The notes: generated from the sequence alone by a model not told the origin. Shown: positions 3,401 to 28,033, numbered from the stretch's first letter. The stretch: 39,609 bases of DNA from Verrucomicrobiota bacterium (GCA_016199935.1 JACQFS010000142.1:1-39609); one strand, 5' to 3'. Made by a program: numbers and translations.

Positions 3401-3552
3401 CCCATTGCTTCCGCCACCGCGCCGGGGTAAAAAATTCCACCTTCCGTCTAAGAAACTGTGCCCGCCCGTGTCGTGCCGGTGTGACCTGATGTCCTCGGGA
3501 ATCGAGCAGGCCGCGGCGAACGACCCGGTGGGATCGTGGAAGTGTGCCGAGC

Positions 3553-4110
3553 ATGGCCTTGATGCAACCAGAACGAGCCAGCGTAAAGCCGACCGGATCG
3601 GAGACGATCGAGGCGTTGTTCGCCGCGCTCGAATCGCCGCTGCTCGCCTACGCCCTGCGCCTGGCCGGCGACCGCGCGACCGCCGAGGACCTCGTCCAGG
3701 ATGCGTTCATGAAATTACACGCCCAGTTTGCCGAAATCCGCGAGCCGCGCCGCTGGCTCTACCGCGCCGTCCACAACGCCGCGCTCAACCACCGTCGCGA
3801 CTCCGGCAAACTCGTCCCCTTCGACCCGCCCCCCGCCGCCGACGCACCCGACACCGCCGAGACCGCCGACACCGAACCGCTCCCCGATGAAATGATCGCG
3901 CGCTGGGAAAACATCGGGCTCGTCCGCCTTGGCCTCGAGACGCTCGACGCGCGCAGCCGCGAACTCATCCGCCTGAAATTTCACGACAATCTTTCCTACA
4001 AGGAAATCGCCGCGCGCACCGGCCTGACCGCCAGCCATGTCGGCTATCTGCTTCATCACGCGCTCAAGGGCATTGCCGGGGAGCTGGCGCGCAAAGGAGT
4101 CGAGCCATGA
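3553..4110 (+). CDS. ECF-type RNA polymerase sigma factor
   Basis: 185 residues from the ATG at 3553; GTG 3544 and ATG 3562 are alternatives. ATG 3553 is preferred because a GGAAG at 3538-3542 lies 10 bases upstream. Sigma region 2 is at roughly residues 22-80 (LAYALRLAGDRATAEDLVQD, FMKLHAQF, EPRRWLYRAVHNAALNHRR), then an acidic Pro/Ala linker, then region 4 with a helix-turn-helix at roughly 122-178 (LETLDARSRELIRLKF, LSYKEIAARTGLTASHVGYL). The stop overlaps the start of the next gene (ATGA), whose product has an anti-sigma-like N-terminus and a membrane segment. The pair is probably a sigma/anti-sigma unit responding to an envelope signal. The exact ECF group is unknown. Confidence 0.93.
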   Translation: MALMQPERASVKPTGSETIEALFAALESPLLAYALRLAGDRATAEDLVQDAFMKLHAQFAEIREPRRWLYRAVHNAALNHRRDSGKLVPFDPPPAADAPDTAETADTEPLPDEMIARWENIGLVRLGLETLDARSRELIRLKFHDNLSYKEIAARTGLTASHVGYLLHHALKGIAGELARKGVEP

Positions 4111-7100
4111 ACCCCGACGCTCCCCAATCCCCGCGCGACGAACTGGAGGCGAAGCTCACCGCCCTCCTGCTCGGCGAACTGCCCGACGCCGAGGCCGCCG
4201 AATTGCGCCGCCAACTCGCGGGCGACGCCGAACTGGCGCGCCTCCACGACCGGCTCGCGCAAACCGTGGGCCTCGTGCGCGAGGCCACCGCGTCGCCCGC
4301 CGATGAATCCGCCGCCCAGCCCGCCCCGCTGCGCCTCGCCGACGCGCGCCGCGAAAAGCTGCTCGCCCATTTCAAGACCCTGCCGATGCCGGTGGCCGCG
4401 AAGCCCGCCGCGCCGGCGCGCGCGCGCGACCTCAAATGGCTCGCGCCCCTCGGCCTCGCGGCGGCGGCCGTGCTTGTGATCGGACTCGGGTTGGGGCTGG
4501 TGATGCCGCGCTACTCCGGCCGTGTGGAAATGGCGCGGCTGCCGGCGATCACCCTCGCAAGCGGGGAAGCTGAGGCCCGGCTTGCAAGCACGATGGCGGT
4601 GTCCGGCCTGCCGCTCGCGACCGACTCACCATCCTCTGACGGCTTCGAGCGGCGACTCGGACGTGAGAAACTCGGCGAGGTGACGCTCTCGGTCACCGCC
4701 GGGCAGCCACGCGAACTCGCTCCGATCGCCCTCACCGGAGGGGCGACACTCTTGTCGCCCTCGTCCTCCAAGAAGGATCAGGACGGCGACAAAAATGTCG
4801 CCGCTCCGATGCCCGTCGCGCACGCCGAGCGCCCCGTCATCGTCCTGCCGCCGGTGGATCAGAGCGGGGCGGAGGTCGGCTTGGCAATCAACCGACCCGA
4901 CACCGGACAAAGTTTCGGGGTCAACGTCGCCAATCCGCGCGGCGAGGCGGTGGCTGCCGGTGGAGTCAGTGGCGGATTCGCCGTTGTCGACTTCTCGGAC
5001 TTTGCCGGCTACCGGGCGGAGCAAAGCGGGAAAATGTCGGACCGCAAAGCGAACGCGTTCGTTACGCGGCAAGGTTACTCTATTCAAACCGACGGACTCT
5101 CCGACCGGATGAAGACGGACGGTGGTGTCGTCTACAACTTCGACCTCGGTGCAGTTCCCGCTGCGCCGGCAATCATCGGCGGAGGTGGAGGAGGCGGCAG
5201 CAGCACCAACTTCGTGACCTACTCATCGTCCACGCGTTCGCGTCCGCTGAACGTGGCGTTGCAGGGCAACAACGCGGCCTTTCTGGCACTTGGCTCAACC
5301 GCGGACTCCGCGATCAACGCGAACCGGGGCGCGATCGGCAATGTAACGAACACTTTCGGCCATAGCACGATCACGGTGAACACGCCGATGCACGACGGCA
5401 TCCTGGCCTTCGGGGCGGCCGAGGGCGTGATCCATTTGAGTCAGGGCACGGCGATTTCGGGAACGCCAAACGGTGAAATTTTCGGCACCGGCGGATTGAC
5501 CGTGAGCAGCGGCAATGCTCGAAACTACAACAGCGCGGGCGAGACTTTCACAAACGGCAATGTGACGGTGAACGCGCTGCGTGTCGCGGGCGGCACGCTC
5601 GACCTCAACGGCCAGGCGCTCACGAACAACAGCGGGGCCGCGCTCTTTACCGGCGATGCCCCGGTCATCAACGGCGCCATCTCGGGAATCGCCGCGCTCA
5701 CCAAGTCGGGCGCGGGCACGCTCGTGTTGGGCGGCGCGAACACCTACACCGGCGGCACCGTCATCAATGCCGGGACGCTCATGGCAGGTAACAACACCGC
5801 GCTCGGTTCGGGCGCGGCGCTCACTTACGGCGGCGTTATCTCTGGTGCAGGCGGTTTGACCATGAGCGGATCGAACGCGCTCGTATTGAACAACGGCAAC
5901 ACTTTCTCCGGCGCGCTCGCCGTCAACAAAGAGACTGAGCGCCGGGCTGGCGGAGCTGCTGTTGAGTTGGGGACGGGCAATCTCGTCGTGAACAGCGGTG
6001 CCACGCTCGACTTGTTCACGGACACGACGTTGAATTTCGCCCGCGCAACCAACACGACGACGTCGCTGGCCGACGGGCGCAATTGGTCATTCGGGCGACC
6101 TGAAAACCTCGGCGCGCTGACGGTGGGCGGCGGCGTGAACACCGCCACCCTCACGCCCGATCCTTCGGCACCGTTTGACTCCGCACACCTCGAGACGCTG
6201 GCCCGCAAGGGGGGGAAGAGCGAGGAGTTGGGCCTCGTCGTCGCCGATCCGCAGGGCGCGCGGGCGAGCGCGGGAGACCAGACCTTTCTCTATTTCAAAG
6301 ACGGCGAAACCAAATCGGGTGCGGGTGCTCCCTCCGCGTTCCCGGCTCGCGCTGTTCGGCTCCCCGAAACCGCGAGTGCGAAAATGCCCGCGCCCGCGCC
6401 GGTGGGCCGGGAGCTTGCGGAGTTGCGCGGACTGGAAGTGAGCGAGTCGAAGCTGGCGGGCGACATGAAGGGCAGCAGCGGCGTCGCGCTCGGGGATGTG
6501 CCGTTCGTCGGCCGCTTCTTCCGTCTGGACGCGCGCACGGCCCACGCCGGCGCGACGATTCCCGGTGCCGCCCCCGCTGCGCCCGCGAAGGCGGCCAAGC
6601 CCGCGATCAACAAGCCGATGCCGGCGCAAACCGAGCTGGCGCTCGCCGATCTCGATGCTCCGCAGCGCAAACTCTCCAGACAAACCGAGTTGGTGAGGGA
6701 CGCGGAGAAGAAAGTGGATGATCTCCGGCGCGAATTAGGCGTCACTGATCCGAGCGGCGACATTGTCGGCGGCATGACGTTGGAACCCGAGGCGCTGCGA
6801 CGTATTCTGGCGATGCGCATCGAGGCACAGGCCGCCTCGGATGAGATCAGCACGCTGGCCGGCAATTTGAAGCAGAAGAGCCGGGAGGAGTTGAAAAAGT
6901 CTATCACCACCGCCGTCCCCGACGGGCAGTTGGTTGCCTTGATCGAGCAGAAAGATCAGGCGGAGCAGAAGCTCGCCACGTTGCGCAAGGATCTCGGCAA
7001 CGAGAACCCCGAAGTCGAGCGCACTGCGGCGTTGGCCCAGAAGATAAACACGCAGGTGGACGACCGACTGGACGGCATCATGGCCGGCTTGGACGTGCGC

Positions 7101-9260
7101 GCGGCCTCCGCCAAGGCGCGCGCCGACAAACTGGAGACCGAAGTCGAAAAGTTCAAGGGACTGGACATCGAAACCGCCAAGAAGAACCGCCGCTACTTCG
7201 AGGCAAAGTCGGAGTTGGCGAAGGCGGAGCAAATCCGCGACACGCTCAATCTCAAGGCCATTCAGGAAACGATTGATACCAGTTTGCCCAAGACCAGCCT
7301 CGTGGTGATCACGGATAAAGCGGAGCCTGCGGCGGAAAAACTTTCTACGTGGGGACGGTTCAAGAATCTGTTCAGCGGAGGCGTCGAGCGTTCCGCCCGC
7401 GTCGCCATCGAAAAGGATGTGCCCGACGTCGGCCCGCTGGCTAGCCAGCAGGCGGCGGCAGGCTACGATCCCTACTTCCTTCTTACCGAAGCCGAGAAGA
7501 TTCAGTCCAAGTCCGTTCTCTACGTCACGATTGATCGGCTGAAACTAAACGAGGAGTGGGCCGAGAAGTCCGGCTCCAGCAAACCGCTCACGACCCCGGA
7601 GACTTACGAGTTGCTCAAGAAGAAGGTGTCCGTCAATCAGGCGCGGAACACGGACCTGCTCGACATTAAGGTCAAGAGCGACAAGCCGGAGGAAGCCGCG
7701 AAGATCGCCAACACCATCGCGGAGGTTTATCGCGAGCTACGCTTGCAGCAACGTCAGCCGTCTCCGGGTAGCGGAATGCAGAAATTGAACGAGTCGCTCA
7801 AACAGCAGGAAGAAAAAGTCGCCGAGGCGAAACTGCAACTCGCCGGTTTGCAGAAGGAATTGGGCGTGCAGCCAGCGGAGCCGGTTGACGCGCCGCTGCC
7901 CAAGCCCGCCGCCAATGCCCCCATTCCCCAACCGGAAATCCTCGCGCGCGACAATGCCTTCTCCACTTTCTCGCTCAACGTCAGCGACGTGTCGTTCAAG
8001 CTCGCGGCGGCGAGCTTGGAGCAGGGCCAGATGCCCGATCCCGCCTCGGTGCGCAGCGAGGAGTTCATCAACGCCTTCGATTACCGCGACCCCGAGGCGG
8101 CGCCGGGCGTGCCGGTCGCGTTCGCGTGGGAGCGCGCGCGGTATCCGTTCGCGCACAATCGCGACCTGCTCCGCTTCTCGGTCAAGACCGCCGCCGCCGG
8201 CCGCCAGTCGGGCCGCCCGCTCAACCTCGTGCTCGCGATTGACAACTCCGGCTCGATGGAGCGCGCCGATCGCGTGCGCATTTTGCGCGAGGCGTTGCGC
8301 GTGCTCGGCACACAGCTTCACGCGGCAGACAAATTGAGCGTCATCACCTTCGCGCGCACGCCGCGCCTGTGGGTGGACGGCGCGGGCGGGGAAACGGCGG
8401 GCGAGATCTTTGAAAAAGTCGGCGCGCTCACGCCCGAGGGCGGCACCAACTTGGAGGAGGCGCTGAACCTCGCCTATCGCACGGCGCTCCGGCATTACCT
8501 CACCAACGGCCTCAACCGCGTGGTGCTGCTCACCGACGGCGCCGCGAATCTCGGCGACGTGGACCCCGCCGCGCTCAAGCAGAAGGTCGAGGCGCATCGC
8601 AAGCAGGGCGTGGCGCTCGACTGTTTCGGCATCGGCTGGGACGGCTTCAACGACGACCTGCTCGAAGTGCTCTCGCGCAACGGCGACGGCCGCTACGGTT
8701 TCCTCAACTCGCCCGAGGAGGCCGCGACGGATTTCGCCGGCCAGCTCGCGGGCGCGCTCCAGGTCGCCGCGTCGGACGTGAAGGTGCAGGTGGAGTTCAA
8801 TCCGAAGCGCGTCACGAGCTGGCGGCAGATCGGCTACGCGAAGCATCAGCTCACCAAGGAGCAGTTCCGCGACAACACGGTGGACGCCGCCGAACTCGCC
8901 GCGCAGGAAGCCGGCAACGCGCTCTACACGATCGAGGCGAATCCCGCCGGCATCGGCCCGGTCGCGACGGTGCGCGTGCGTTTCAAAATTCCCGGCACGT
9001 CGGATTACCGCGAGCACGCGTGGGACGTGCCGTTCACCGGCAACGCGGTGGCGCTGGAGCAGTCCAGCCCCGCGATGCGGCTGGCCGCGACGGCGAGCGC
9101 GTTTTCCGAATGGCTCGCGGCGAGTCCGTTCGCCGCGGAGGTCGCGCCGAACAAGCTGCTGAATTATCTGAGCGGCGTGCCGGAAATTTTCGGCGCCGAC
9201 GCGCGGCCGAAGAAGCTGGAGTGGATGATCCGCCAGGCCAAAAGCGTGGGCGGGAAGTGA
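4107..9260 (+). CDS. Mosaic membrane protein: anti-sigma-like N-terminus, PATR repeats, Wzz-like coiled coil, YfbK-like VWA domain
   Basis: 1717 residues, overlapping the sigma factor stop by 4 bp. Residues 1-100 are a helical cytosolic region (LTALLLGELPDAEAAELRRQ) like anti-sigma proteins of this phylum, without the HxxxCxxC zinc motif. One transmembrane helix follows at about 109-134. Residues 490-610 contain autotransporter-associated beta-strand repeats (KSGAGTLVLGGANTYTGGT, VINAGTL, a degenerate second copy). At about 795-806 a LGDVPFVGRFFR motif resembles the end of secretin proteins. Residues about 850-1255 are coiled coil with a Wzz/GNVR-like part (TEAEKIQSKSVLYVTIDRL, ARNTDLLDIKVKSDKPEEAA). 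The C-terminal 450 residues match YfbK: a von Willebrand lead-in, a VWA domain with complete MIDAS (D1379-x-S-x-S, T1447, D1477) and DUF3520. I know no described protein with this whole order; the function as a membrane sensor is inference. Confidence 0.88.
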   Translation: MNPDAPQSPRDELEAKLTALLLGELPDAEAAELRRQLAGDAELARLHDRLAQTVGLVREATASPADESAAQPAPLRLADARREKLLAHFKTLPMPVAAKPAAPARARDLKWLAPLGLAAAAVLVIGLGLGLVMPRYSGRVEMARLPAITLASGEAEARLASTMAVSGLPLATDSPSSDGFERRLGREKLGEVTLSVTAGQPRELAPIALTGGATLLSPSSSKKDQDGDKNVAAPMPVAHAERPVIVLPPVDQSGAEVGLAINRPDTGQSFGVNVANPRGEAVAAGGVSGGFAVVDFSDFAGYRAEQSGKMSDRKANAFVTRQGYSIQTDGLSDRMKTDGGVVYNFDLGAVPAAPAIIGGGGGGGSSTNFVTYSSSTRSRPLNVALQGNNAAFLALGSTADSAINANRGAIGNVTNTFGHSTITVNTPMHDGILAFGAAEGVIHLSQGTAISGTPNGEIFGTGGLTVSSGNARNYNSAGETFTNGNVTVNALRVAGGTLDLNGQALTNNSGAALFTGDAPVINGAISGIAALTKSGAGTLVLGGANTYTGGTVINAGTLMAGNNTALGSGAALTYGGVISGAGGLTMSGSNALVLNNGNTFSGALAVNKETERRAGGAAVELGTGNLVVNSGATLDLFTDTTLNFARATNTTTSLADGRNWSFGRPENLGALTVGGGVNTATLTPDPSAPFDSAHLETLARKGGKSEELGLVVADPQGARASAGDQTFLYFKDGETKSGAGAPSAFPARAVRLPETASAKMPAPAPVGRELAELRGLEVSESKLAGDMKGSSGVALGDVPFVGRFFRLDARTAHAGATIPGAAPAAPAKAAKPAINKPMPAQTELALADLDAPQRKLSRQTELVRDAEKKVDDLRRELGVTDPSGDIVGGMTLEPEALRRILAMRIEAQAASDEISTLAGNLKQKSREELKKSITTAVPDGQLVALIEQKDQAEQKLATLRKDLGNENPEVERTAALAQKINTQVDDRLDGIMAGLDVRAASAKARADKLETEVEKFKGLDIETAKKNRRYFEAKSELAKAEQIRDTLNLKAIQETIDTSLPKTSLVVITDKAEPAAEKLSTWGRFKNLFSGGVERSARVAIEKDVPDVGPLASQQAAAGYDPYFLLTEAEKIQSKSVLYVTIDRLKLNEEWAEKSGSSKPLTTPETYELLKKKVSVNQARNTDLLDIKVKSDKPEEAAKIANTIAEVYRELRLQQRQPSPGSGMQKLNESLKQQEEKVAEAKLQLAGLQKELGVQPAEPVDAPLPKPAANAPIPQPEILARDNAFSTFSLNVSDVSFKLAAASLEQGQMPDPASVRSEEFINAFDYRDPEAAPGVPVAFAWERARYPFAHNRDLLRFSVKTAAAGRQSGRPLNLVLAIDNSGSMERADRVRILREALRVLGTQLHAADKLSVITFARTPRLWVDGAGGETAGEIFEKVGALTPEGGTNLEEALNLAYRTALRHYLTNGLNRVVLLTDGAANLGDVDPAALKQKVEAHRKQGVALDCFGIGWDGFNDDLLEVLSRNGDGRYGFLNSPEEAATDFAGQLAGALQVAASDVKVQVEFNPKRVTSWRQIGYAKHQLTKEQFRDNTVDAAELAAQEAGNALYTIEANPAGIGPVATVRVRFKIPGTSDYREHAWDVPFTGNAVALEQSSPAMRLAATASAFSEWLAASPFAAEVAPNKLLNYLSGVPEIFGADARPKKLEWMIRQAKSVGGK

Positions 9261-9262
9261 GC

Positions 9263-9610
9263 ATGGCAAAAATGAACATGCGTTTCAGTTCAAAGTGCGC
9301 GGCGTTTGTGCTTCTGCTCGCGCTGTTCCTCTCGGGTTGCCGCACGCCGGACTACACCAAGGGCCAGTCCGATGTTTGCGAAGTTCACCACGTCGCCATG
9401 ACCAGGCGTGCGCTGCCGTTCGCGCACGGCATGATCCCCATGAGCCGCAAGGCGGCCGAGACCGGCGAATGGGGCCGACGCATGAAATTCCATCCGCATC
9501 CGGGCGATTGCATTCCGGCCACCGACATCGTCCTGCCCGGACAGACAGGACGCGCGCTGGAGTTCGTCTGCCGCGATTGTGAGCAGGCGATGCGGCGGAT
9601 GAAGCAGTGA
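9263..9610 (+). CDS. Small Cys/His-rich lipoprotein
   Basis: 115 residues. The start at 9263 is chosen for a GGAAG 5 bases upstream; ATG 9272 and 9278 are alternatives. A lipoprotein signal is clear (FVLLLALFLSGC, lipid Cys26). The mature part is rich in possible metal ligands: Cys39-x2-His42-His43, Met46, His55, His77, His79, Cys83, and a final Cys103-x2-Cys106 (CRDC). That pattern suggests a bound metal or disulfides. It lies 2 bp after the mosaic VWA gene and just before the giant envelope protein, so it is probably co-expressed. I do not recognise a named family with certainty. Confidence 0.75.
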   Translation: MAKMNMRFSSKCAAFVLLLALFLSGCRTPDYTKGQSDVCEVHHVAMTRRALPFAHGMIPMSRKAAETGEWGRRMKFHPHPGDCIPATDIVLPGQTGRALEFVCRDCEQAMRRMKQ

Positions 9611-9712
9611 GCAACTGGAATGTTGGTCACCCAAACAAATAACGAACACAACTTTTACATCTGCCGAACAACCGGCAACCGCGACGAAGGCAAAATCATT
9701 GGGAACAAAATC

Positions 9713-12700
9713 ATGAAAACAAAGAACACAACGGCCAGGACCACCACATGCAAAATGACGCGGTCCCCGATTGACCGACCGAACATCGCGAAGCGTTTGG
9801 ACTGCGGCGCTTCAGCGCCGCTTTCAAATGCGTGGGTGCGAGCGAGGCCGTTGTGCGTCACGGATGAAAAAGCGGTGATGAATCACCGCAGTCCAAACGC
9901 TTCGCGATGTTTGGACGCGCCCACGGATTCGTCGCCTGCAAGCCGGGCGGAGGCGCAATGTCAGGCAGGGGGCGCTTTCCTCAGCGCGCCGTGGCCGGTC
10001 AAGCCAACGTCCGACATTCCTCACGGCGCGCTGGGGACAGCGTGTCCTGCCATCCGCACTTTTGCCGGGCTGTTGCTCATTGCGCTCGCGCTTTGCGGCC
10101 CGCTTATTGCCGCGACTGCGCCACCAAAGGGAGACAAAGCACCGCCGCTCACGCCTCCTCCTCCTCCCGCACCCGCGCCCGTCATCACACTCTCCGATTT
10201 CAAACTCACCGGTGAGCTCGCGGGCGAACGCGCGGCGTTCACGCTCACGGCGAAGGCGAAGGTGGAGGACACCAAGGGCGGCTCGCTCGAACTGCTCTCG
10301 GGCACGGTCGCGCTCACAGGTTTCACGCCGAATCCCAAGTGGCGATTGCGCGTGGAGCAGAACCGTTTCATCGCCGTGTTCGACCGCGATGGCACGTTTC
10401 CGATCGAGATCAAATTTAACACCGCCGTGCGCCAGCGCGACGGGTGGAAGTCGGTGGATTTCCGTGTCGCTCCGAGCGTGCTGCAACCGCTCGTGCTGCG
10501 CGGGCTGGCGGAGGACACGCAGTTCCGCTTCGCCGGTGCGGCGCGCGCGGACCGCAAGGGCGACGACTTTGTGACGTGGCTCGCGTCAGACGGCGTGGTG
10601 AACCTCTCGTGGCAGGAGACGCGGCCGGAGGCGGAGGGAAAACTTTTTTACGCCGCCGAGATGCTCTCGCAAATCAGCGTGAGTCCGGGGCTGTTGCGTC
10701 AGACGGCGCTGCTGGATTTCAAAGTGATGCAGGGCGAGCTGAGTCGCGTCGCGATTTTGCTGCGCGGCAAGGACGAGGTGACGCGCGTGCAGGGCGACCA
10801 GGTGCTCGCGTGGAACGTCGAGCCGGTCGCCGGCTCCTCCACCGACCGCCGGCTCGTAGTGAAGCTCAACCAGCCGCAGAAGGACTCCTTCGCGCTCCAG
10901 GTGCAGACGCAGGCGCCGCTCGGCGCGTTCCCGCAGACGGCCGGGGCGACGCAGTTGCAGCCGGAGGGCGCGACGCGCTTCGCCGGCTTCTTCCGCGTGG
11001 TGAACGATGGCGCGGTGCGGCTCGAAGTCGTGCAGGCAGCCGGGCTGTCGCAAATTTCGCCGGAGCAATTTCCCGAGACGAGCGCGAGCAAGGCGGCGCT
11101 GCGCTCGACGGGCACGCAGCGTTTCGCGTATCGCTTTTCCGGCGGCGACATCGCTCTGAAAATCCAGGCCGAGCAGACGCTGCCGGAACTGACGGTGTCG
11201 CAGGTGCTCGCCTACCGGCTGGGCGAGGCGGAACTTTCGGCCGAGGCGGAGATCGAGGTGGAAATCCGCGAGGCGCCGTTGCGTGAGCTGACGCTGCACG
11301 TGCCCAAGGGCTACGCCGTCGCGCAGCTCAGCGCGAACGGGCTCGCCGATTATTTTTTGCGCGAGCCGGCGGACCAGACGAATGCCGAGCTGCGTTTGGT
11401 TTTCAGCCAGCCCGTTTCCGGCCGGCAGGTCATCGGCCTGCGGCTGGAGCGCAACTCCGCGCTCGTCTCGACCAACTGGACGCTCCCGCGCATCGAGGTG
11501 CCCAAGGCGAAATCCGTCCGCGGCAACGTGGGCGTGTCCGCCGACGCGGGCTTCCGTCTCACGCCCGCGCGCACGTCGGGCCTCACCGAAATGGCCACGG
11601 CATTTTTCCCGCGCAAAATTTCCGGTCTGCAGACGGCGTTCCGCATCAGCGAGCCGGCGTGGCAGGCGACGTTGCGCGTCGAGCGGCTGCCGCAAACGGT
11701 GCAGGCCGACGCGTTCCACCTATTCTCCATCGGCGAGGGCATCGCCTACGGCAGCAGCGTGATGAACTACGTCGTGTCGGGCGCGCCGGTGTCGGCGTTT
11801 CGCGTCGAGCTGTCGGACGAATATTTCAACGTCGAGTTCACCGGCGCGGACGTGCGCAACTGGCAGAAGACGACGAACGGCTACGTGGTGCAGTTGCACG
11901 CGCCGGTGTCGGGCGCCTACACGCTGCTCGCGAGCTACGAGCGGCCGTTCAAGGCGCAGGGCGAGACGCTGGCGTTCACCGGCGCGCGCCCGCTCGACGC
12001 GCAAAGCGAGCAGGGCCACACGGTCATCATCAGCGCGAACCAGTTCGAGGTGAAGCCGGCGGAAATTTCGCCCGGCCTGCTGCCGCTCGAAAGCGGCGAG
12101 GTGCCGCCGGAATACCGGCTGTTCTTCGACGCGCCGATTCTCGCGGCGTATCGCTACGCGGCGCGGCCGTTCAATCTGCGCCTCGCGCTCAGCCCGCTCG
12201 CGCAGGGCGATTCGCTCAACCAGGTCGTCGAGCGCGCGTCGCTGCTCACGCGCATCTCGAAGGAGGGCCAGGTCGTCACCGACGCGACTTACTTTCTGAA
12301 AAATCGCGGCAACCCGAATTTCCGCCTCACGCTGCCCGAGGGCACGCAGCTCTGGTCCGCGACCGTGAACGGCGCGCCGGTCGTGCCGGTGATTGACGCG
12401 AAGGACAACCTCATCCGCCTGCCGCAGAGCGCCGACCCCAACGCGGTGCTCAAGGTGGACCTCAAGCTCGCGTCGCGCTCGGCGGTCGCGGAGCGCGTGA
12501 CGCTCGCCGCGCCCAAGGTGAACGCGCCCGAGATGCTCGCCGAGTGGCGGCTCGAACCCGACGCGGGCCGGCGGCTCGTCTTCGAGCGCGGCTCGCTCAC
12601 GCCCGTCGGCGGCGAGACGGACGTGACGGGCTTCGCGCAACTCGCGCGCGTGTTCAACGGCGGCGGCGACGCGCTGCGCCCGGCGGTGCTGCTCTTCGCG

Positions 12701-15700
12701 GCGCTGTTGCTCGTGGGCATCGCCATCGCGGTGTGGCGGTGGACGTGTCAGGACGGCGTTTTCAAATTTACCGCGAGGCATCTGTGCGGTGTCGTGGTGG
12801 GGCTCGCGGCGTTCGGGCTTGCGGTGGTCGTGCTGCTCACGTTGGCCAATGCGGCGACGGGGCAGCAGGCCTTCTCGTCGCGCGAACTGAGTTTCCTCGC
12901 GCCGGTGAAACAGGCCGGCAGCGTGTTGAGCATCGAAGTGGCGAACCTCGAGGACAAGCCGACGACCGGCGGCGCGCTGCGTCCGGCGTGGCCCGCGCTG
13001 CTGGCGCTCTTGGCGTGGGGCTTCGCGTGGAGCCGCCGTGACGCGACGCTCAAGGCGCTCGCGCGCGCGGTCGGCTGGACGCTCGTCGCGTGGGCCGCGC
13101 TGCGTTCGCAAAACGGCGCGCCGGCATTTGTCATCGTCGTGGTCGCGTTCCTCGGAGTGCACGTTTTGATTCCGGCGATGCGGCAGTTGTTCCGTCTGCC
13201 GCGCCGGGCCGCGACTGATGCGGGTGAGAGCGGCATCGCGACGGCGGTCACGTCATTGCTCATCGGCGCGCTGCTGTGGCTGAACACCGGCTGCGCAATG
13301 GACGCCACGGGCCGCACCAAAACTTCCGGCCCCTCGCTCGCGCTGAAGGAGCCGCCGGTCGCGGAGTCCATCACGCAGAGCGTGCGCGTGGAGGAACAGT
13401 TCGCGCTCGGGACGTCGAAAATCCACTGGCCCGCGCTCAAGGGCCAGGTGCTGCCGCTGCTCGCCGAGCCGGCGGTGCTCACGCGCGTGAGCTACCCGTC
13501 GAACTCGCTCAAGCTCGTGACCGCGCAGGTCGGCGGCCGGCGCACGCAGCAACTGGTCGCGAAGTTCGACGGGACTTACGACGTGGAGGTGCAATACCAG
13601 ATGCAGGTGACGAAGAAGAACGGCGAGAGCGGCTTCGCGTTGCCGACGCAGTTCGGACTCGTCAACGAACTCCAGCTCACGCTCGCCGGCCTTGACGTGG
13701 ACGTGCAGTCGGCGCAGGCGGTGTCCATCGAGCGCGAGCTCGCGGACACGAACACGGTCGCGAAGCTGGTGCTCGCGCCGGTGGGAGAAACGTGGGTCGG
13801 CTGGAGGCCGCGCAGCCGCGATGTGAAAAAGGAGAAGGCGGTGTTCTACGCCGATGTGGCGCAGCTTTACGCGCCGTCGGCGGGCGTGATCGAGGGCGCG
13901 CATCACGTCGCGATTCGCCCGGCGCAGGGGGAGCTGGGCGAGTTGGTGTTCACGATTCCAGCGGGAGCGACCGTCACTGACGTGGGTAGCAGCCGAGGTA
14001 ACGAGGCTCTAACTTCTCAGTCCGGAAAAAGTCAGAGCCTCCTCACGTCGGCTGCTAACGGATCGGTGGTGTCGCTGTGGCGCTTCGATCCGGATGCGCG
14101 AAAGCTGCGCGTCACGTTGAACCCGCCGCAGTCGAAGCCGTTCGCGCTCGTCATCCGTTCGCAGGTCGCGACGGGACCGCTGCCGGTCGAGCAATCCGTC
14201 GGGCTCGTGTCGGTGGATGGCGCGGCGGGGCAGATTGGTCTGCTCGGCGTCGCCACTGGAAATGAAGTGCAGCTCGACAGCGTGGGCGCGGATTCTTTTT
14301 CTCCGATCAACCTCGAAGATTTTCCCGCGGCCACCGCGCAATCCCTCGCGTCGCAGATTTCCGGGCTGACCGTGCGTCGCGCATTCCGTTATTCGGATGC
14401 GAAGGCCACCGCGTCGCTCAAGGCCTCGCCCGTCGAGCCGGACGTGCGCGTCGAGGCGCAGACCACGTTGTCGCTCGGCGAGGACCGCACCGTGCTCGCC
14501 GCGAACCTCACGGTGGACATCACGCGCGCCGGAATTTTCCGCCTCAGCTTCGTGATGCCCGACGGCTTCGACGCCGAGGCGATCAGCGGCGCGGCGTTGA
14601 GCCATTGGACGGAACTCAAGAGCGACGCGGGGCGCGTCATCACGCTGCACCTGCGCGGCAAGACCGAGGGGCGGCAGGCGTTCGCGATCAACGTGACCGG
14701 CCCCGGCGTGAAGTCCGCGGCGGCGTGGCGCGTGCCGCAGTTGCTCCTGCGCGAAGCGGGCAAACAGCAGGGCACGCTCGTGATCGCGCCCGAGCAGGGG
14801 ATGCAGTTGCAGGCGGCGACGGTCGAGGGCGTGTCGCAGCTCGGCCCGCAGCAGTCGGGCATCAAGCAGAAGGGCGTGCTCGCGTTCCGGCTGTTGCAGA
14901 CGGCGTGGAACCTCGCGCTGAAAGTCGAGCAGGTGGAGCCGTGGATCCAGGTCACGAGCCTCCAGCACGCGACGGTCAACGAGGCGCTCGTGAAGGTCGC
15001 CGCGAACTTGCAATACCAGATCGAAAACACGGGGCTGAAAACCTTGCGCGTGCTCCTGCCGACGAACGCCGAGAGCGTGCGCTTCACGGGTGAACTGGTG
15101 ACGGACTTTCTGCAAGTGCAGAATGCGGTGACGAATCCCGACAAGTCGGGACAACTGTGGGAGGTGAAATTGTCGCGCCGCGTCATCGGCCAGTATCTGC
15201 TGCACGCGACATGGCAGACGGTGATGGCCGACCAGGCGAGCGACACCACGATGGCCGGCGTGCAGGCGGCGGAGGTGAATCTGCAACGCGGCTTCGTGGC
15301 CGTGCAGTCGGGCGGACGGTTGCAGTTGCGAGTGGACGCCGCGCCCGCGGCGTTGCAGCCGGCCGAGTGGCAGAGCATCCCGCGCGCGCTCCAGCAAAAC
15401 CTCCCGCAGACCGCGGCGAGCCACACGTTCCGGCTCGTCGAGCCGGCGTTCGTGCTGCCGCTGAAACTGGAGCGGCACGAGGCGGCGAAACTTTTGCCCG
15501 CGCGCATCAACCGCATCACCTTCACCTCCGCGATCTCCGACGACGGCGTGATGCTGACGCGCGCGCAGCTCGAGATGCAGCCGGGCGACAAGCGCCTGCT
15601 CGCGCTCACCCTGCCGGCGGGAGCGAAGTTCTGGTTCGCGTTCGTGAACAACGGCGGCGTGTGGCCGTGGCGCGACGGCGAGAAGATTCTGATCCCGCTC

Positions 15701-16603
15701 GAACAGCCGTCACGCGGCGCGGCGGTGCCGGTGGAGATTTTCTTCAGCGGCAAGGCCGGCGCGGCGGACGGGCGCGCGCTCGATCTCGAACTGCTCGCGC
15801 CGAAATTTGACCTGCCGCTGGAAAACCTCACGTGGCGCGTTTTCCTCGGCGAGCGGTGGCAGGTGAAAAAGTGGGCGGGCGCGTTGCAACTGGAGCAGGA
15901 GCAGTTCGTCGCGGGCGGCGCGGCGTTTGATTTGCAGGGCTACCTCAAGGGCGAGGCCGTGCAGCAGCGGCAGAAAAGCGATCAGGCCACGCAGATGCTC
16001 ACGCTCGGCAACAACGCGCTGCAACAGGGCGACCCGCAGCAGGCGCGGCGGGCGTTCCAGTCGGCGTGGGGATTGTCGAAGCACGACAGCGCCTTCAACG
16101 AGGACGCGCGCGTGCAGTTGCACAACCTCAAGCTGCAACAGGCGCTCGTGGGTTTGAACGTCCGGCAGTTAAACGTCAACGGCGGCGTCGCGACCAACGC
16201 CGTCGCGCTCACGCTCAACGGCAGGCTGCGCGAAACTCAAGGCGGCCAGGAACTCAACTACACGCAGCAGGACGCGAAGCAACTGATCGAGCAGCGCACC
16301 AGTGACGACAACGCCGCGCTGATGAAACTGGCCGAGCGGATCATCCAGCAGCAGGACGCCGCGGTGATTGTGCCCGCCGCGATCCGCGCGAACATTCCCG
16401 AGCAGGGCCGCCTGCTCACCTTCAAGCGCGCCGTGGTGGTGGACACGTGGGCTGACCTAAAGATCGCGGTGCAAACGACCGCGGCGCGGACGTCCTCACT
16501 GGGAACGCAAGCCGCGACGCTGGCGGGGATTTTCCTGATGCTCGCGCTGGTCGCGTGGGTGTCGGCGTCGTTTGGGGCGCGCCGGACGAGTGCGGCGGAG
16601 TGA
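9713..16603 (+). CDS. Very large multi-domain envelope protein with internally duplicated halves
   Basis: About 2296 residues from ATG 9713 (GGGA 8 bases upstream); the frame is open back to ATG 9620, giving 2327. Residue numbers here count from 9620. A hydrophobic signal or anchor (TFAGLLLIALALCGPLIAAT) starts only near residue 149, after a leader that includes two palindromic elements. It is followed by a Pro-rich linker and a long beta-rich region. A central cluster of membrane segments lies at about 1020-1226 and ends in LLWLNTGC, a lipobox-like sequence. A second beta-rich half follows, with a TPR-like stretch (LGNNALQQGDPQQARRAFQ) and a C-terminal membrane helix. The halves align from about 395 (VLAWNVEP...) and 1484 (VSLWRFDP...). 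A 74-bp palindromic element is read in frame at 13986-14059. Function unknown; probably envelope assembly or sensing with the preceding genes. Confidence 0.8.
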   Translation: MKTKNTTARTTTCKMTRSPIDRPNIAKRLDCGASAPLSNAWVRARPLCVTDEKAVMNHRSPNASRCLDAPTDSSPASRAEAQCQAGGAFLSAPWPVKPTSDIPHGALGTACPAIRTFAGLLLIALALCGPLIAATAPPKGDKAPPLTPPPPPAPAPVITLSDFKLTGELAGERAAFTLTAKAKVEDTKGGSLELLSGTVALTGFTPNPKWRLRVEQNRFIAVFDRDGTFPIEIKFNTAVRQRDGWKSVDFRVAPSVLQPLVLRGLAEDTQFRFAGAARADRKGDDFVTWLASDGVVNLSWQETRPEAEGKLFYAAEMLSQISVSPGLLRQTALLDFKVMQGELSRVAILLRGKDEVTRVQGDQVLAWNVEPVAGSSTDRRLVVKLNQPQKDSFALQVQTQAPLGAFPQTAGATQLQPEGATRFAGFFRVVNDGAVRLEVVQAAGLSQISPEQFPETSASKAALRSTGTQRFAYRFSGGDIALKIQAEQTLPELTVSQVLAYRLGEAELSAEAEIEVEIREAPLRELTLHVPKGYAVAQLSANGLADYFLREPADQTNAELRLVFSQPVSGRQVIGLRLERNSALVSTNWTLPRIEVPKAKSVRGNVGVSADAGFRLTPARTSGLTEMATAFFPRKISGLQTAFRISEPAWQATLRVERLPQTVQADAFHLFSIGEGIAYGSSVMNYVVSGAPVSAFRVELSDEYFNVEFTGADVRNWQKTTNGYVVQLHAPVSGAYTLLASYERPFKAQGETLAFTGARPLDAQSEQGHTVIISANQFEVKPAEISPGLLPLESGEVPPEYRLFFDAPILAAYRYAARPFNLRLALSPLAQGDSLNQVVERASLLTRISKEGQVVTDATYFLKNRGNPNFRLTLPEGTQLWSATVNGAPVVPVIDAKDNLIRLPQSADPNAVLKVDLKLASRSAVAERVTLAAPKVNAPEMLAEWRLEPDAGRRLVFERGSLTPVGGETDVTGFAQLARVFNGGGDALRPAVLLFAALLLVGIAIAVWRWTCQDGVFKFTARHLCGVVVGLAAFGLAVVVLLTLANAATGQQAFSSRELSFLAPVKQAGSVLSIEVANLEDKPTTGGALRPAWPALLALLAWGFAWSRRDATLKALARAVGWTLVAWAALRSQNGAPAFVIVVVAFLGVHVLIPAMRQLFRLPRRAATDAGESGIATAVTSLLIGALLWLNTGCAMDATGRTKTSGPSLALKEPPVAESITQSVRVEEQFALGTSKIHWPALKGQVLPLLAEPAVLTRVSYPSNSLKLVTAQVGGRRTQQLVAKFDGTYDVEVQYQMQVTKKNGESGFALPTQFGLVNELQLTLAGLDVDVQSAQAVSIERELADTNTVAKLVLAPVGETWVGWRPRSRDVKKEKAVFYADVAQLYAPSAGVIEGAHHVAIRPAQGELGELVFTIPAGATVTDVGSSRGNEALTSQSGKSQSLLTSAANGSVVSLWRFDPDARKLRVTLNPPQSKPFALVIRSQVATGPLPVEQSVGLVSVDGAAGQIGLLGVATGNEVQLDSVGADSFSPINLEDFPAATAQSLASQISGLTVRRAFRYSDAKATASLKASPVEPDVRVEAQTTLSLGEDRTVLAANLTVDITRAGIFRLSFVMPDGFDAEAISGAALSHWTELKSDAGRVITLHLRGKTEGRQAFAINVTGPGVKSAAAWRVPQLLLREAGKQQGTLVIAPEQGMQLQAATVEGVSQLGPQQSGIKQKGVLAFRLLQTAWNLALKVEQVEPWIQVTSLQHATVNEALVKVAANLQYQIENTGLKTLRVLLPTNAESVRFTGELVTDFLQVQNAVTNPDKSGQLWEVKLSRRVIGQYLLHATWQTVMADQASDTTMAGVQAAEVNLQRGFVAVQSGGRLQLRVDAAPAALQPAEWQSIPRALQQNLPQTAASHTFRLVEPAFVLPLKLERHEAAKLLPARINRITFTSAISDDGVMLTRAQLEMQPGDKRLLALTLPAGAKFWFAFVNNGGVWPWRDGEKILIPLEQPSRGAAVPVEIFFSGKAGAADGRALDLELLAPKFDLPLENLTWRVFLGERWQVKKWAGALQLEQEQFVAGGAAFDLQGYLKGEAVQQRQKSDQATQMLTLGNNALQQGDPQQARRAFQSAWGLSKHDSAFNEDARVQLHNLKLQQALVGLNVRQLNVNGGVATNAVALTLNGRLRETQGGQELNYTQQDAKQLIEQRTSDDNAALMKLAERIIQQQDAAVIVPAAIRANIPEQGRLLTFKRAVVVDTWADLKIAVQTTAARTSSLGTQAATLAGIFLMLALVAWVSASFGARRTSAAE
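9782..9911. repeat. 130-bp palindromic element inside the leader of the giant gene
   Basis: Perfect 26-bp inverted arms at 9782-9807 and 9886-9911 (AACATCGCGAAGCG..., TTTGGACTGCGG). Each arm runs into a hairpin of the form GCGG-nnn-TTCA-nnn-CCGC: 9804-9821 has CGC/GCG, and 9872-9889 read on the minus strand has TGA/TCA. The TTCA loop is kept while the three inner pairs all differ by compensatory changes. The element is read in frame by the giant gene. Confidence 0.9.
9964..10051. repeat. Second palindromic element in the leader of the giant gene
   Basis: Imperfect 30-bp inverted arms at 9964-9993 and 10022-10051 (25 of 30 match), with the conserved end CAGCGCGCCGTG and its complement. The arms resemble those at 22200-22286 (GGYAGGRCRCGSTGTCCYCA pattern), so both belong to one family. 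The element ends about 12 bases before the hydrophobic signal codons. Confidence 0.75.
13986..14059. repeat. Palindromic element read in frame inside the giant gene
   Basis: Inverted arms at 13986-14013 and 14031-14059 share TAGCAGCCGA..., GAGGCTCT with a few mismatches, around a 17-base centre. The frame stays open, adding a Ser/Gly/Asn-rich stretch (SSRGNEALTSQSGKSQSLL) between two beta-rich segments (TIPAGATVTDV and VVSLWRFDP) that would otherwise adjoin. Confidence 0.85.
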
Positions 16604-25198: not shown

Positions 25199-27961
25199 TT
25201 ACTGGAACTTGCCGAGCTGCTTCATCGTCTCGTCGAGGCAATACTTGATGTAATAGTCGGGCTTGTCGGGATTCGCTTCCTTCTCCAGCGCGCTCAGCGC
25301 CACTTCGGCGGCCTTGCTCGTCTGGAAGAAGCTGCACGCGCGGATGGCTTCGAGGCGGACGCGTGGATTTTCATCCGTGGCCTGCGGCTTGAGGAGGGCG
25401 AGCGGGTCTTTCACGCGGTCGCGCCAGTAACAGAGCACGCGCGTGGCGGCGGCGCGGGCACGGTAATCCGGCGAGCGGAGCACCTGCTTCAGGAGCGCTT
25501 CGTCCACGACGTTGTGCCACTGATGGACCCAGAGCGCCTCGGTGAGGTTGTGCGCGTAGTCCTTGTCGGACTTGTTGAGCGAGGCGGCCCATTTCTTCGT
25601 CGCCGCGATGACCTTGGCGGAGTCGTGCTTGCTGAGTTCGATTTTGGCGCGCGTGCGCACGTCGTCCTCGGGCGTCTTCAGGACTTCGAGCAATTTCTCA
25701 ATGGACTCACCGGCGATTTTCACCGGCTTGAGGAGCGGGCGACCCTCGAAGGTCATGCGGTAAATGCGGCCGTGGGATTTGTCGCGCTTGGGATCGCGGA
25801 TGTGGTGCTGCATGTGGCCGATGAGCGGCTTGGCCCAGTCGCAGAAGTAGAACGAGCCGTCGGGCGCGACCGCGCCGCAGATCGGGCGGAAGTTCGGGAT
25901 CGCGGCGTTGTCGCCCTTCAGGAGGTCCTCGATGGACTCGCCCTTGATGCCCGCGCCGTCCTCGGAAAATTTCGCGCGGTAGATTCCCTGGAAGCCGATG
26001 ACATTGAAGTTGAGGAAATTTCCCTGAAACTCCCCGGGGAAATGCCGGCTGGAAAGAATCGCCGTGGCCGGGCAGGGGCGCGACGGGTTCTTCCAGAAAA
26101 GCTGGAGCTTCGGATGCTTCGCCGGGAAATCAATCGCGCCGCTGAAGGCCGGGGCGAAGTAGTTCGCGTTGCCGGTGGCGTCGGTGATGAAGTCATTTCC
26201 CCAGTAGTCGAAGACGCGCCCGTGCGGGTTGGCGAAGCCGTAGGCGACGTAGCGCTCGAACCGGTGCGAGAGCGGTTCGTAGCGATACACGCCGCCGTCA
26301 ATGTTCCGCACCGCGCCGGCGGCGGTCTCGACCTGCGTGCGGTGGAACACGCCGTCGCTCAGGTAAACCGCGCCGCCCGGCTCGTAACAGATCGAGTTGG
26401 CCGTGTGGTGCGAGTCGGCGGAGTCCATGCCCATCACCACGCGCTCCCTCGCGCCGGCCTTGCCGTCGGCGCCGTGGACGAACCACAAATCCGGCGCCTG
26501 CATCACGAGCACGCCATCCTTGTGAAATTGAAAACCGGTCGGGCAATTCAGGCCGTCGAGCCAGGTCGTGCATTTCACCGGCTTGCCGTCCGCGCCGAGG
26601 TCGAAGATGAGCAGCTTGTCCTTCACCTTGTCGGTCGGGGCCACTTCGGGATAGCTCGGCCACGCGGCGATCCACAGCCGGCCCTGTGGGTCGAAGGACA
26701 TCTGCACCGGGCTGACGAGTTCGGGAAACTTCACCTCGTCGGCCACGAGGGTGATCTTGCAACCCTTGGCGGCGGTGATGTGCTTGATGGTCTCCTCGCC
26801 GCTGAGATACGGCATGTCGTTCGTCAGGTTGGAGGCGGGCAGCAGCCGGGCCTTGGGCAGATTGGAATCATCCAGCTTCAAGTCGCCGCCCTTGGCGACG
26901 GCCCACACGCGCTTGTCGCGATTGGCGGTCAACGCGTCGCGCTGATTCATCTCATCCTGCATCGTCTGGAAGTTCGAGAGCAGCGGCGGCTCCGGCTCGC
27001 GCAAGTTGCTCTTGAAGGGCTTCACGCCCGCCTGGAACGCCAGCCCCGAGCGGCCGCCGTAAACATTGTAGCCATCCACCGTGCGGTAACGGTGGTGCCA
27101 CTCGGCGTTCTTCTCGTTGATGGCGGCGCGGAGTTTCTCGTGATTGCCCGACGGCGCGGACTCGCCGGTGAGCGCGCGGAAAATTTCCGGCGCGAACGCC
27201 TGGTCGCCCGCCTCGGTGAGATGGACGGTGTCGAACGTGAGCGCCTGCTTCTTCTTCGCGGCGTCGGCGTAGGCTTGCTGCGAGAGCTTGAACAACTCCA
27301 CGAACGGCACGCCCGCGGCCTTCGCGACCTCGGCCATCGCGGCGGAATATTTTTGGAGGTTCGCGTTGCTCGCCGTGGGGTCGGGCAGGTTCGGGTCGCT
27401 GGATTTTTCCGCCGCGAGCGGGCCGAAGAGCACGACGCGCGGCGCGCCCTTGCCGCTGTAGTTTTTGCCGGCGGTCTCCTTGAGGAACGTGCCGAGGTCG
27501 CCCTTGAACTTCGCGAGGCCCGCGTCGCCGGCGAAGGATTCGTTGAAGCCGAAGAACGCGAAGATCACGTCGGCCTTCACCATTTTCAACCAGTCGTCGT
27601 TCGAGCCGAAATTCTCGGAACGGTTGCGAAGATTCTTGTCGAGCTTGCCGCCCTGGGCCGCCGCGGCTTCCGCCTCGGCCTTGGAGGTCTTGATCGAATT
27701 CTTGTCGTCCTTCGGGACGCTGTCGAGGAAGCCGCCGACCTCGTCGCCGGAATAGCCGAGATTGCGGAAAACAAGATCCTGCTTCGCGAAGCGCGCCGTC
27801 AGCAGCGCCTCGAGCCAACCGTGGTGCTGCATGCGGTCCGGCGTCCCGTTGCCGATGAGGGCGATGTGGTCGCCGGGCTTGAGATCGAGGTTCGCCGCGG
27901 AAGCGGAGATGGCGGCGAAAGCCAGACCGGCGGCGAGAAGGGAGAGACGGAGGAGGCGCAT
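25199..27961 (-). CDS. PVC-type secreted protein: SGNH-like domain, TIGR02604 beta-propeller, HEAT repeats
   Basis: 920 residues from the ATG at 27961, which begins a clear signal peptide (MRLLRLSLLAAGLAFAAISASA); a start at 28015 would add 18 residues. Residues about 25-285 are SGNH-hydrolase-like (KPGDHIALIGNGTPDRMQHH, IFAFFGFNESF, DTVHLTEAG with the Asp/His pair); the usual block-I serine is not evident. Residues about 390-700 match the Pirellula/Verrucomicrobium membrane-bound dehydrogenase propeller (ISFDP-like QMSFDPQGRLWIAAWPSYP, FANPHGRVFDYWGNDFITD). A HEAT-like region follows to the end. The terminal haem-c CXXCH seen in many relatives is absent. It is periplasmic or surface; the substrate is unknown, possibly polysaccharide-related. 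Confidence 0.9.
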   Translation of the reverse strand: MRLLRLSLLAAGLAFAAISASAANLDLKPGDHIALIGNGTPDRMQHHGWLEALLTARFAKQDLVFRNLGYSGDEVGGFLDSVPKDDKNSIKTSKAEAEAAAAQGGKLDKNLRNRSENFGSNDDWLKMVKADVIFAFFGFNESFAGDAGLAKFKGDLGTFLKETAGKNYSGKGAPRVVLFGPLAAEKSSDPNLPDPTASNANLQKYSAAMAEVAKAAGVPFVELFKLSQQAYADAAKKKQALTFDTVHLTEAGDQAFAPEIFRALTGESAPSGNHEKLRAAINEKNAEWHHRYRTVDGYNVYGGRSGLAFQAGVKPFKSNLREPEPPLLSNFQTMQDEMNQRDALTANRDKRVWAVAKGGDLKLDDSNLPKARLLPASNLTNDMPYLSGEETIKHITAAKGCKITLVADEVKFPELVSPVQMSFDPQGRLWIAAWPSYPEVAPTDKVKDKLLIFDLGADGKPVKCTTWLDGLNCPTGFQFHKDGVLVMQAPDLWFVHGADGKAGARERVVMGMDSADSHHTANSICYEPGGAVYLSDGVFHRTQVETAAGAVRNIDGGVYRYEPLSHRFERYVAYGFANPHGRVFDYWGNDFITDATGNANYFAPAFSGAIDFPAKHPKLQLFWKNPSRPCPATAILSSRHFPGEFQGNFLNFNVIGFQGIYRAKFSEDGAGIKGESIEDLLKGDNAAIPNFRPICGAVAPDGSFYFCDWAKPLIGHMQHHIRDPKRDKSHGRIYRMTFEGRPLLKPVKIAGESIEKLLEVLKTPEDDVRTRAKIELSKHDSAKVIAATKKWAASLNKSDKDYAHNLTEALWVHQWHNVVDEALLKQVLRSPDYRARAAATRVLCYWRDRVKDPLALLKPQATDENPRVRLEAIRACSFFQTSKAAEVALSALEKEANPDKPDYYIKYCLDETMKQLGKFQ

Positions 27962-28033
27962 AATGTTTTGAGTTTCGAGGCGGGTTAGATAGCCCATGCG
28001 CGGGACGTTATTCAACGCAAATGAAGTCGCTCT

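Follow-up and report, generated by a model that had tools for sequence, protein, structure and literature searches.

A predicted three-gene ECF sigma operon of Verrucomicrobiota whose mosaic anti-sigma/VWA protein carries a circularly permuted Wzc-type domain

As read from its genes, the system described here is a three-gene ECF sigma operon, consisting of a sigma factor, a mosaic anti-sigma/VWA protein (P0001) and a giant membrane protein. It is located in a stretch of 39,609 nucleotides from a Verrucomicrobiota bacterium (GCA_016199935.1 JACQFS010000142.1:1-39609), called the window below; its genome is designated G000. Most of the recognisable modules of P0001 between the membrane helix and the VWA domain correspond to parts of export or surface machines, and one of them is a circularly permuted Wzc-type periplasmic domain that tracks the Wzc of its own genome. 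We tentatively propose, with a little less than even confidence, that the anti-sigma factor monitors envelope export machines via mimic subunits, with sigma release as the output. The original prediction, made from the window alone, had included neither the third operon gene and the promoter nor the permutation and the own-genome matching. Features are listed in Table 1.

Table 1. Features of the sigma operon in the window (residues refer to P0001 unless stated otherwise)
Feature	Position	Strand	Basis
Putative ECF promoter TCTAAGAAAC-N11-GTGTC, 5' of sigma gene	3447..3472	+	Dyad conservation and sequence reading
ECF sigma factor, 185 aa	3553..4110	+	Matches to PF04542/PF08281 and to TIGR02937, all above cut-off
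Mosaic anti-sigma/VWA protein P0001, 1717 aa	4107..9260	+	Single open frame; order kept in relatives
Anti-sigma domain (predicted), residues 1-90	4107..4376	+	AF2 helical bundle; anti-sigma domains lead the structural matches
Single membrane helix, residues 115-133	4449..4505	+	Hydropathy peak 2.49 at 115, the sole one in P0001
Autotransporter-type beta-strand repeats, residues about 440-657 (PATR core 531-558)	5424..6077	+	PF12951 above cut-off; TIGR02601; ShdA-type match
Secretin-end-like motif LGDVPFVGRFF, residues 795-805	6489..6521	+	Motif scan; seen again in several relatives
Wzc block A, residues 853-1074 (own Wzc 187-408, 71% identity)	6663..7328	+	BLASTP
21-residue linker joining the permuted halves, replacing both Wzc membrane helices	7329..7391	+	Blocks separated by an alignment gap; other copies have similar linkers
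Wzc block B, residues 1096-1254 (own Wzc 55-213, 57% identity)	7392..7868	+	BLASTP
vWF_A (PF12450), residues 1280-1356	7944..8174	+	Pfam above cut-off
VWA domain, MIDAS intact, residues 1373-1538	8223..8720	+	Pfam above cut-off; motif positions
YfbK_C (PF12034), residues 1550-1686	8754..9164	+	Pfam above cut-off
Giant membrane protein, third operon gene; conserved core from near residue 147	9620..16603	+	Directly downstream homologues in relatives

The sigma factor (TIGR02937, E 2e-22) is composed of sigma2 and sigma4 domains only, which places it among ECF sigma factors. Its gene shares the ATGA with the P0001 frame, whose 1717 codons are free of internal stops, so that both the predicted overlap and the single intact frame were confirmed. 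A frameshift or an assembly join in 4107-9260, named in the original prediction as what would refute it, was rejected as very unlikely, because the fused order recurs in single frames, with the sigma gene upstream, in dozens of other genomes. About 25 of 58 related genomes, representing different families of the same order, had both the anti-sigma start and a VWA end, in most cases within a single frame and with a homologous sigma gene directly 5'. Many further VWA ends in long frames were detected in an order-wide search of 320 genomes, and outside the order each of the 12 loci checked has a sigma gene and a gene for a VWA protein 5' of the giant gene. Both ends of the protein, anti-sigma and VWA, are constant among relatives, while the middle is swapped between genomes, and most members in the order have the operon with no recognisable Wzc block. 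In one anti-sigma/VWA protein (L246:1134-4019), a secretin N-domain-like stretch, recognised by eye, appears to split the YfbK C-terminal domain.

The cytosolic start of P0001 had been predicted to be anti-sigma-like and followed by a single membrane helix, and both parts of this prediction hold. When residues 1-138 were modelled by AF2 from two sequences, a three-helix bundle followed by a fourth helix was obtained, with pLDDT of about 86-91 over residues 11-60. The best Foldseek matches of this model were mostly anti-sigma domains, with weak E-values, and the six best rows of the VIA comparison were ChrR (Z 7.2), RslA, RskA, RsiW and two MucA, unrelated rows starting at Z 4.5. Since for helical bundles a Z below about 13 can reflect a common arrangement, the specificity of this list outweighs the Z value. 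At the sequence level, anti-sigma families remained below threshold in the window. The NCBIfam anti-sigma model gave weak matches, at residues 17-154 of P0001 and in 19 of 20 homologues; zf-HC2 was above cut-off in the distant member L245, and a profile of the domain returned no relevant match among PDB sequences. P0001 thus shares with class I anti-sigma factors a helical cytoplasmic fold (by the best Foldseek and VIA rows, with weak E-values), a co-encoded sigma factor in conserved pairing and a membrane anchor. The modelling supports an anti-sigma fold for the N-terminus, and we infer that this domain binds the sigma factor.

The domains expected in the remainder of P0001 were found by profile searches, that is vWF_A, VWA, YfbK_C and PATR/TIGR02601, the Wzc region being matched through an EpsF/Wzc-type NCBIfam model at residues 1111-1255. 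The three C-terminal domains follow one another in the order of the YfbK family, all above Pfam gathering cut-offs, and the MIDAS, predicted to be intact, has its motif residues in place (DNSGS at 1379, T of GGTNL at 1445, D of LTDG at 1475). The predicted autotransporter-associated repeats are present as well; Pfam matched no C-terminal beta-barrel domain that would make P0001 an autotransporter. Likewise, the end motif is all that P0001 has of a secretin, Pfam Secretin being unmatched there. HMM support for this motif, also part of the original prediction, is weak (Pfam Secretin E 0.004-0.08 in five relatives), and the motif occurs again in the middles of relatives.

The coiled coil preceding the VWA domain had been assigned to the Wzz/GNVR type. 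Its Wzc-type homology was upheld; an ordinary Wzz/GNVR insert was ruled out by BLASTP against the Wzc of the same genome, a full co-polymerase/BY-kinase of 731 aa whose gene at L038:3583-5778 is followed by an export-lipoprotein-like gene. Both blocks align to this Wzc without gaps, at 57-71% identity, and they are circularly permuted, because the segment equivalent to Wzc 187-408 precedes that equivalent to Wzc 55-213. On these alignments, the block is a whole Wzc-type periplasmic domain, from which both flanking membrane helices have been removed. The Wzc helix 187-213 is present at both ends of the block, as expected for a trimmed duplication. The same permuted block, always directly before the VWA module, was detected in 18 or more further anti-sigma/VWA proteins. 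The linkers of these copies resemble one another and have no counterpart at that position in Wzc; possibly, the linker is what remains of the N-terminal segment of Wzc itself. In E. coli Wzc, residues 54-109, 209-267 and 403-427 (motif 1) form the ring of the octamer, and the helical bundle was proposed to contact Wza (PMC8285477). By analogy of position, the parts retained in P0001 would correspond to this ring motif and bundle. A single-sequence AF2 model of the block was poor (pLDDT 54). Between the window copy and its own Wzc, dN/dS was 0.20 for block A and 0.35 for block B, at dS values a little over 1; being pairwise, these values pool two branches, and they suggest that both sequences are constrained. 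Short frames of 216-420 aa, mainly matching the Wzc base and several of them side by side, were also noted (G233:C131, G227:C103, G237:C112).

Of 18 copies in which block B could be tested, 16 had their nearest Wzc in the same genome, a count to be read as a strong trend rather than a probability, because genomes are not independent draws. The own-genome Wzc was nearest to block A in most cases too (for example in G227, 79% identity to own against 52% to foreign Wzc). In trees, copies were placed beside their own Wzc with support of 100/96 (G000), 100/98 (G050) and 100/97 (G217). A single clade of anti-sigma copies was rejected in an AU test on 223 columns (p-AU 0.034) and was not rejected on 165 columns under a mixture model (p-AU 0.268). 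One old capture followed by vertical descent is therefore disfavoured by the own-genome ranks and by one of the two AU tests. As for the process that keeps the copies matched, repeated capture is as possible as gene conversion, since it would be unusual for conversion to act on sequences that share about 70% of their nucleotides. A pure effect of composition is also disfavoured: the pseudopilin insert of G050 is common to anti-sigma copies and nearest to these, not to the pilins of its own genome, and therefore serves as a negative control.

Other export-machine modules were found in the middles of relatives, namely FliL (E 1e-9, G034), Wza-type Poly_export (7e-13, G049) and the GspG-like pseudopilin mentioned above (2e-5, G050). 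The FliL and Wza-type inserts have their nearest copies in their own genomes. Outside the order, DUF1559 pseudopilin-type and squalene-hopene-cyclase-type domains were above cut-off in L247 and traces of secretin N-domains below cut-off in L250; L244 has a PATR-like repeat and L245 a secretin-end motif, both recognised by eye. Furthermore, M56 proteins resembling BlaR1/MecR1 (recognised by eye) in G038, G018, G044 and G144 carry a C-terminal, unpermuted Wzc coil. Loci of this kind are L072/L198 (G038:C523), L074 (G018:C597), L197:2195-4024 and L194:1838-4486. The coil was nearest to the own-genome Wzc in all three cases tested; that of G144 was 67% identical to its own Wzc, against 53% within the family. 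The G144 protein (L194) also ends in a FliL-like stretch, which was matched by the FliL segment. Because Wzc and FliL pieces are present on M56-like sensors too, two unrelated signalling families borrow the same parts.

The third gene encodes a giant membrane protein with some 2,200 conserved residues, internally duplicated, which belongs to no known family, since it had no match in Pfam, NCBIfam or PDB. Its homologues directly downstream in relatives are 36-66% identical, and it was detected in 60 of 289 genomes across the phylum. Among the relatives checked, most have the giant gene directly after the anti-sigma/VWA gene; in the window, a small putative lipoprotein (LSGC) is encoded between the two (9263-9610). 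Neighbours upstream of the operon are a PSCyt3/PSD-type protein (21-845) and a DUF1552 (HXXSHH) protein (901-2244), of families with no assigned function, and a 938-aa frame with GDSL-lipase-like, DUF7133 and HEAT domains is located on the minus strand at 25199-28015. The conserved promoter-like motif 5' of the operon is a putative ECF promoter. Its dyad TCTAA-N17-TGTC occurred in 28 of 36 regions upstream of sigma genes, compared with a maximum of 3 in shuffled sequences. The exact pattern was present only once in G000, at this operon, while the looser form occurred elsewhere at control level; other genes had one-mismatch or control-level matches only, and no exopolysaccharide genes were found as targets of the strict pattern.

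The tentative monitoring model assumes that the system watches an envelope machine of its own cell, because the middle modules are mostly export or surface pieces and the Wzc piece tracks the own Wzc. According to the model, the N-terminal domain would hold the sigma factor at the membrane, while the permuted domain, kept similar to real Wzc, would dock either on the ring formed by Wzc or on Wza, the partner of Wzc in the outer membrane. At its other end, P0001 would use its VWA module to bind another component of the envelope, which might be the giant protein encoded by the third gene. If the export machine were absent, jammed or disassembled, the contacts of the mimic would change, and the anti-sigma factor would release the sigma factor, by cleavage or by conformational change. 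Freed sigma would then transcribe its own operon. The contact with Wzc or Wza, the direction of the signal and the release step are all inferred. The wider proposal is slightly more tentative still: that ECF anti-sigma factors and BlaR1/M56-like sensors of this phylum might carry decoys of the cell's own export subunits, kept matched by recapture or gene conversion, and thereby report the assembly and function of these machines.

The original prediction offered another interpretation. Its pairing of an ECF sigma with an anti-sigma factor and the VWA fusion are well supported; its adhesion-type VWA sensing found no specific support. If it applied, the MIDAS would bind a surface, matrix or envelope ligand and pull on the anti-sigma factor, the middle serving mainly as a spacer or stalk across the periplasm. 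This fits the intact MIDAS and the VWA end, which is the most conserved part and is present in nearly all members, those with short middles included. We nevertheless consider it rather unlikely, as it leaves without explanation the machine-subunit middle, the kept permuted frame and the own-genome Wzc match.

The middle is variable and in many members of low complexity, and it differs even between related genomes. It might thus be a linker, mostly without order and under weak constraint, that picks up pieces of common genes through illegitimate recombination, with no sensory meaning and with the same genome as the natural donor. The dN/dS of 0.20-0.35, the permuted frame conserved with similar linkers in about 19 proteins, the limitation of the theme mostly to export machines and the same modules on an unrelated sensor class make this improbable. 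Lower still we place a scaffold or assembly factor, that is mainly a structural partner of the giant protein and of the Wzc or pilus machinery, with the sigma factor merely balancing operon expression by autoregulation. The giant gene was indeed always adjacent at the loci checked and the strict promoter pattern is essentially confined to the own operon; however, this pattern may overlook weaker promoters.

If the monitoring model is true, bacteria use subunit look-alikes built into membrane regulators to follow how their large envelope machines are assembled, a sensing principle that we did not find described. It would also mean that a whole periplasmic domain was circularly permuted in nature and re-matched to its parent many times, and that a three-gene sigma system with a giant third protein of no known family extends through the phylum. 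The system offers a direct test of how cells sense exopolysaccharide and pilus machinery. The domain order had been predicted to be undescribed, and no description of the architecture was found in the literature searched, which was that outside subscription journals.

Several known systems share single traits with P0001. As for class I anti-sigma factors paired with ECF sigma factors (RseA, MucA, ChrR, RslA, RskA, RsiW), the gene pair, the N-terminal helical fold and the single membrane helix are alike; unlike in these proteins, the extracytoplasmic part of P0001 exceeds 1,500 residues, contains swapped machine modules and ends in a YfbK-type VWA. With the YfbK family it shares vWF_A, VWA and YfbK_C in order, whereas the anti-sigma/TM N-terminus, the mosaic middle and the adjoining ECF sigma gene are additions. 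The Wzc co-polymerase/BY-kinases (E. coli Wzc, PDB 7nhr) have the same complete periplasmic domain, homologous to that of the own-genome Wzc, but in P0001 it is permuted and has neither membrane helices nor kinase. In BlaR1/MecR1 antirepressors, the sensor domain is borrowed from the protein class being watched. P0001 would be similar in having a borrowed sensor domain, and Wzc coils are found on M56-like homologues in this order; BlaR1/MecR1, however, signal by a metalloprotease and not by sigma release. The outer domains of RsgI proteins resemble cellulosome parts. The SigI/RsgI systems of Clostridium thermocellum comprise single-pass anti-sigma factors that sense extracellular substrates and regulate cellulosome genes (PMC12203970). 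P0001 resembles them as a predicted single-pass anti-sigma factor that would likewise sense by its outer part. They belong to other sigma and anti-sigma families, and while RsgI outer domains bind external polysaccharides, the modules of P0001 are export-machine subunits, one of them circularly permuted and tracking its own-genome copy.
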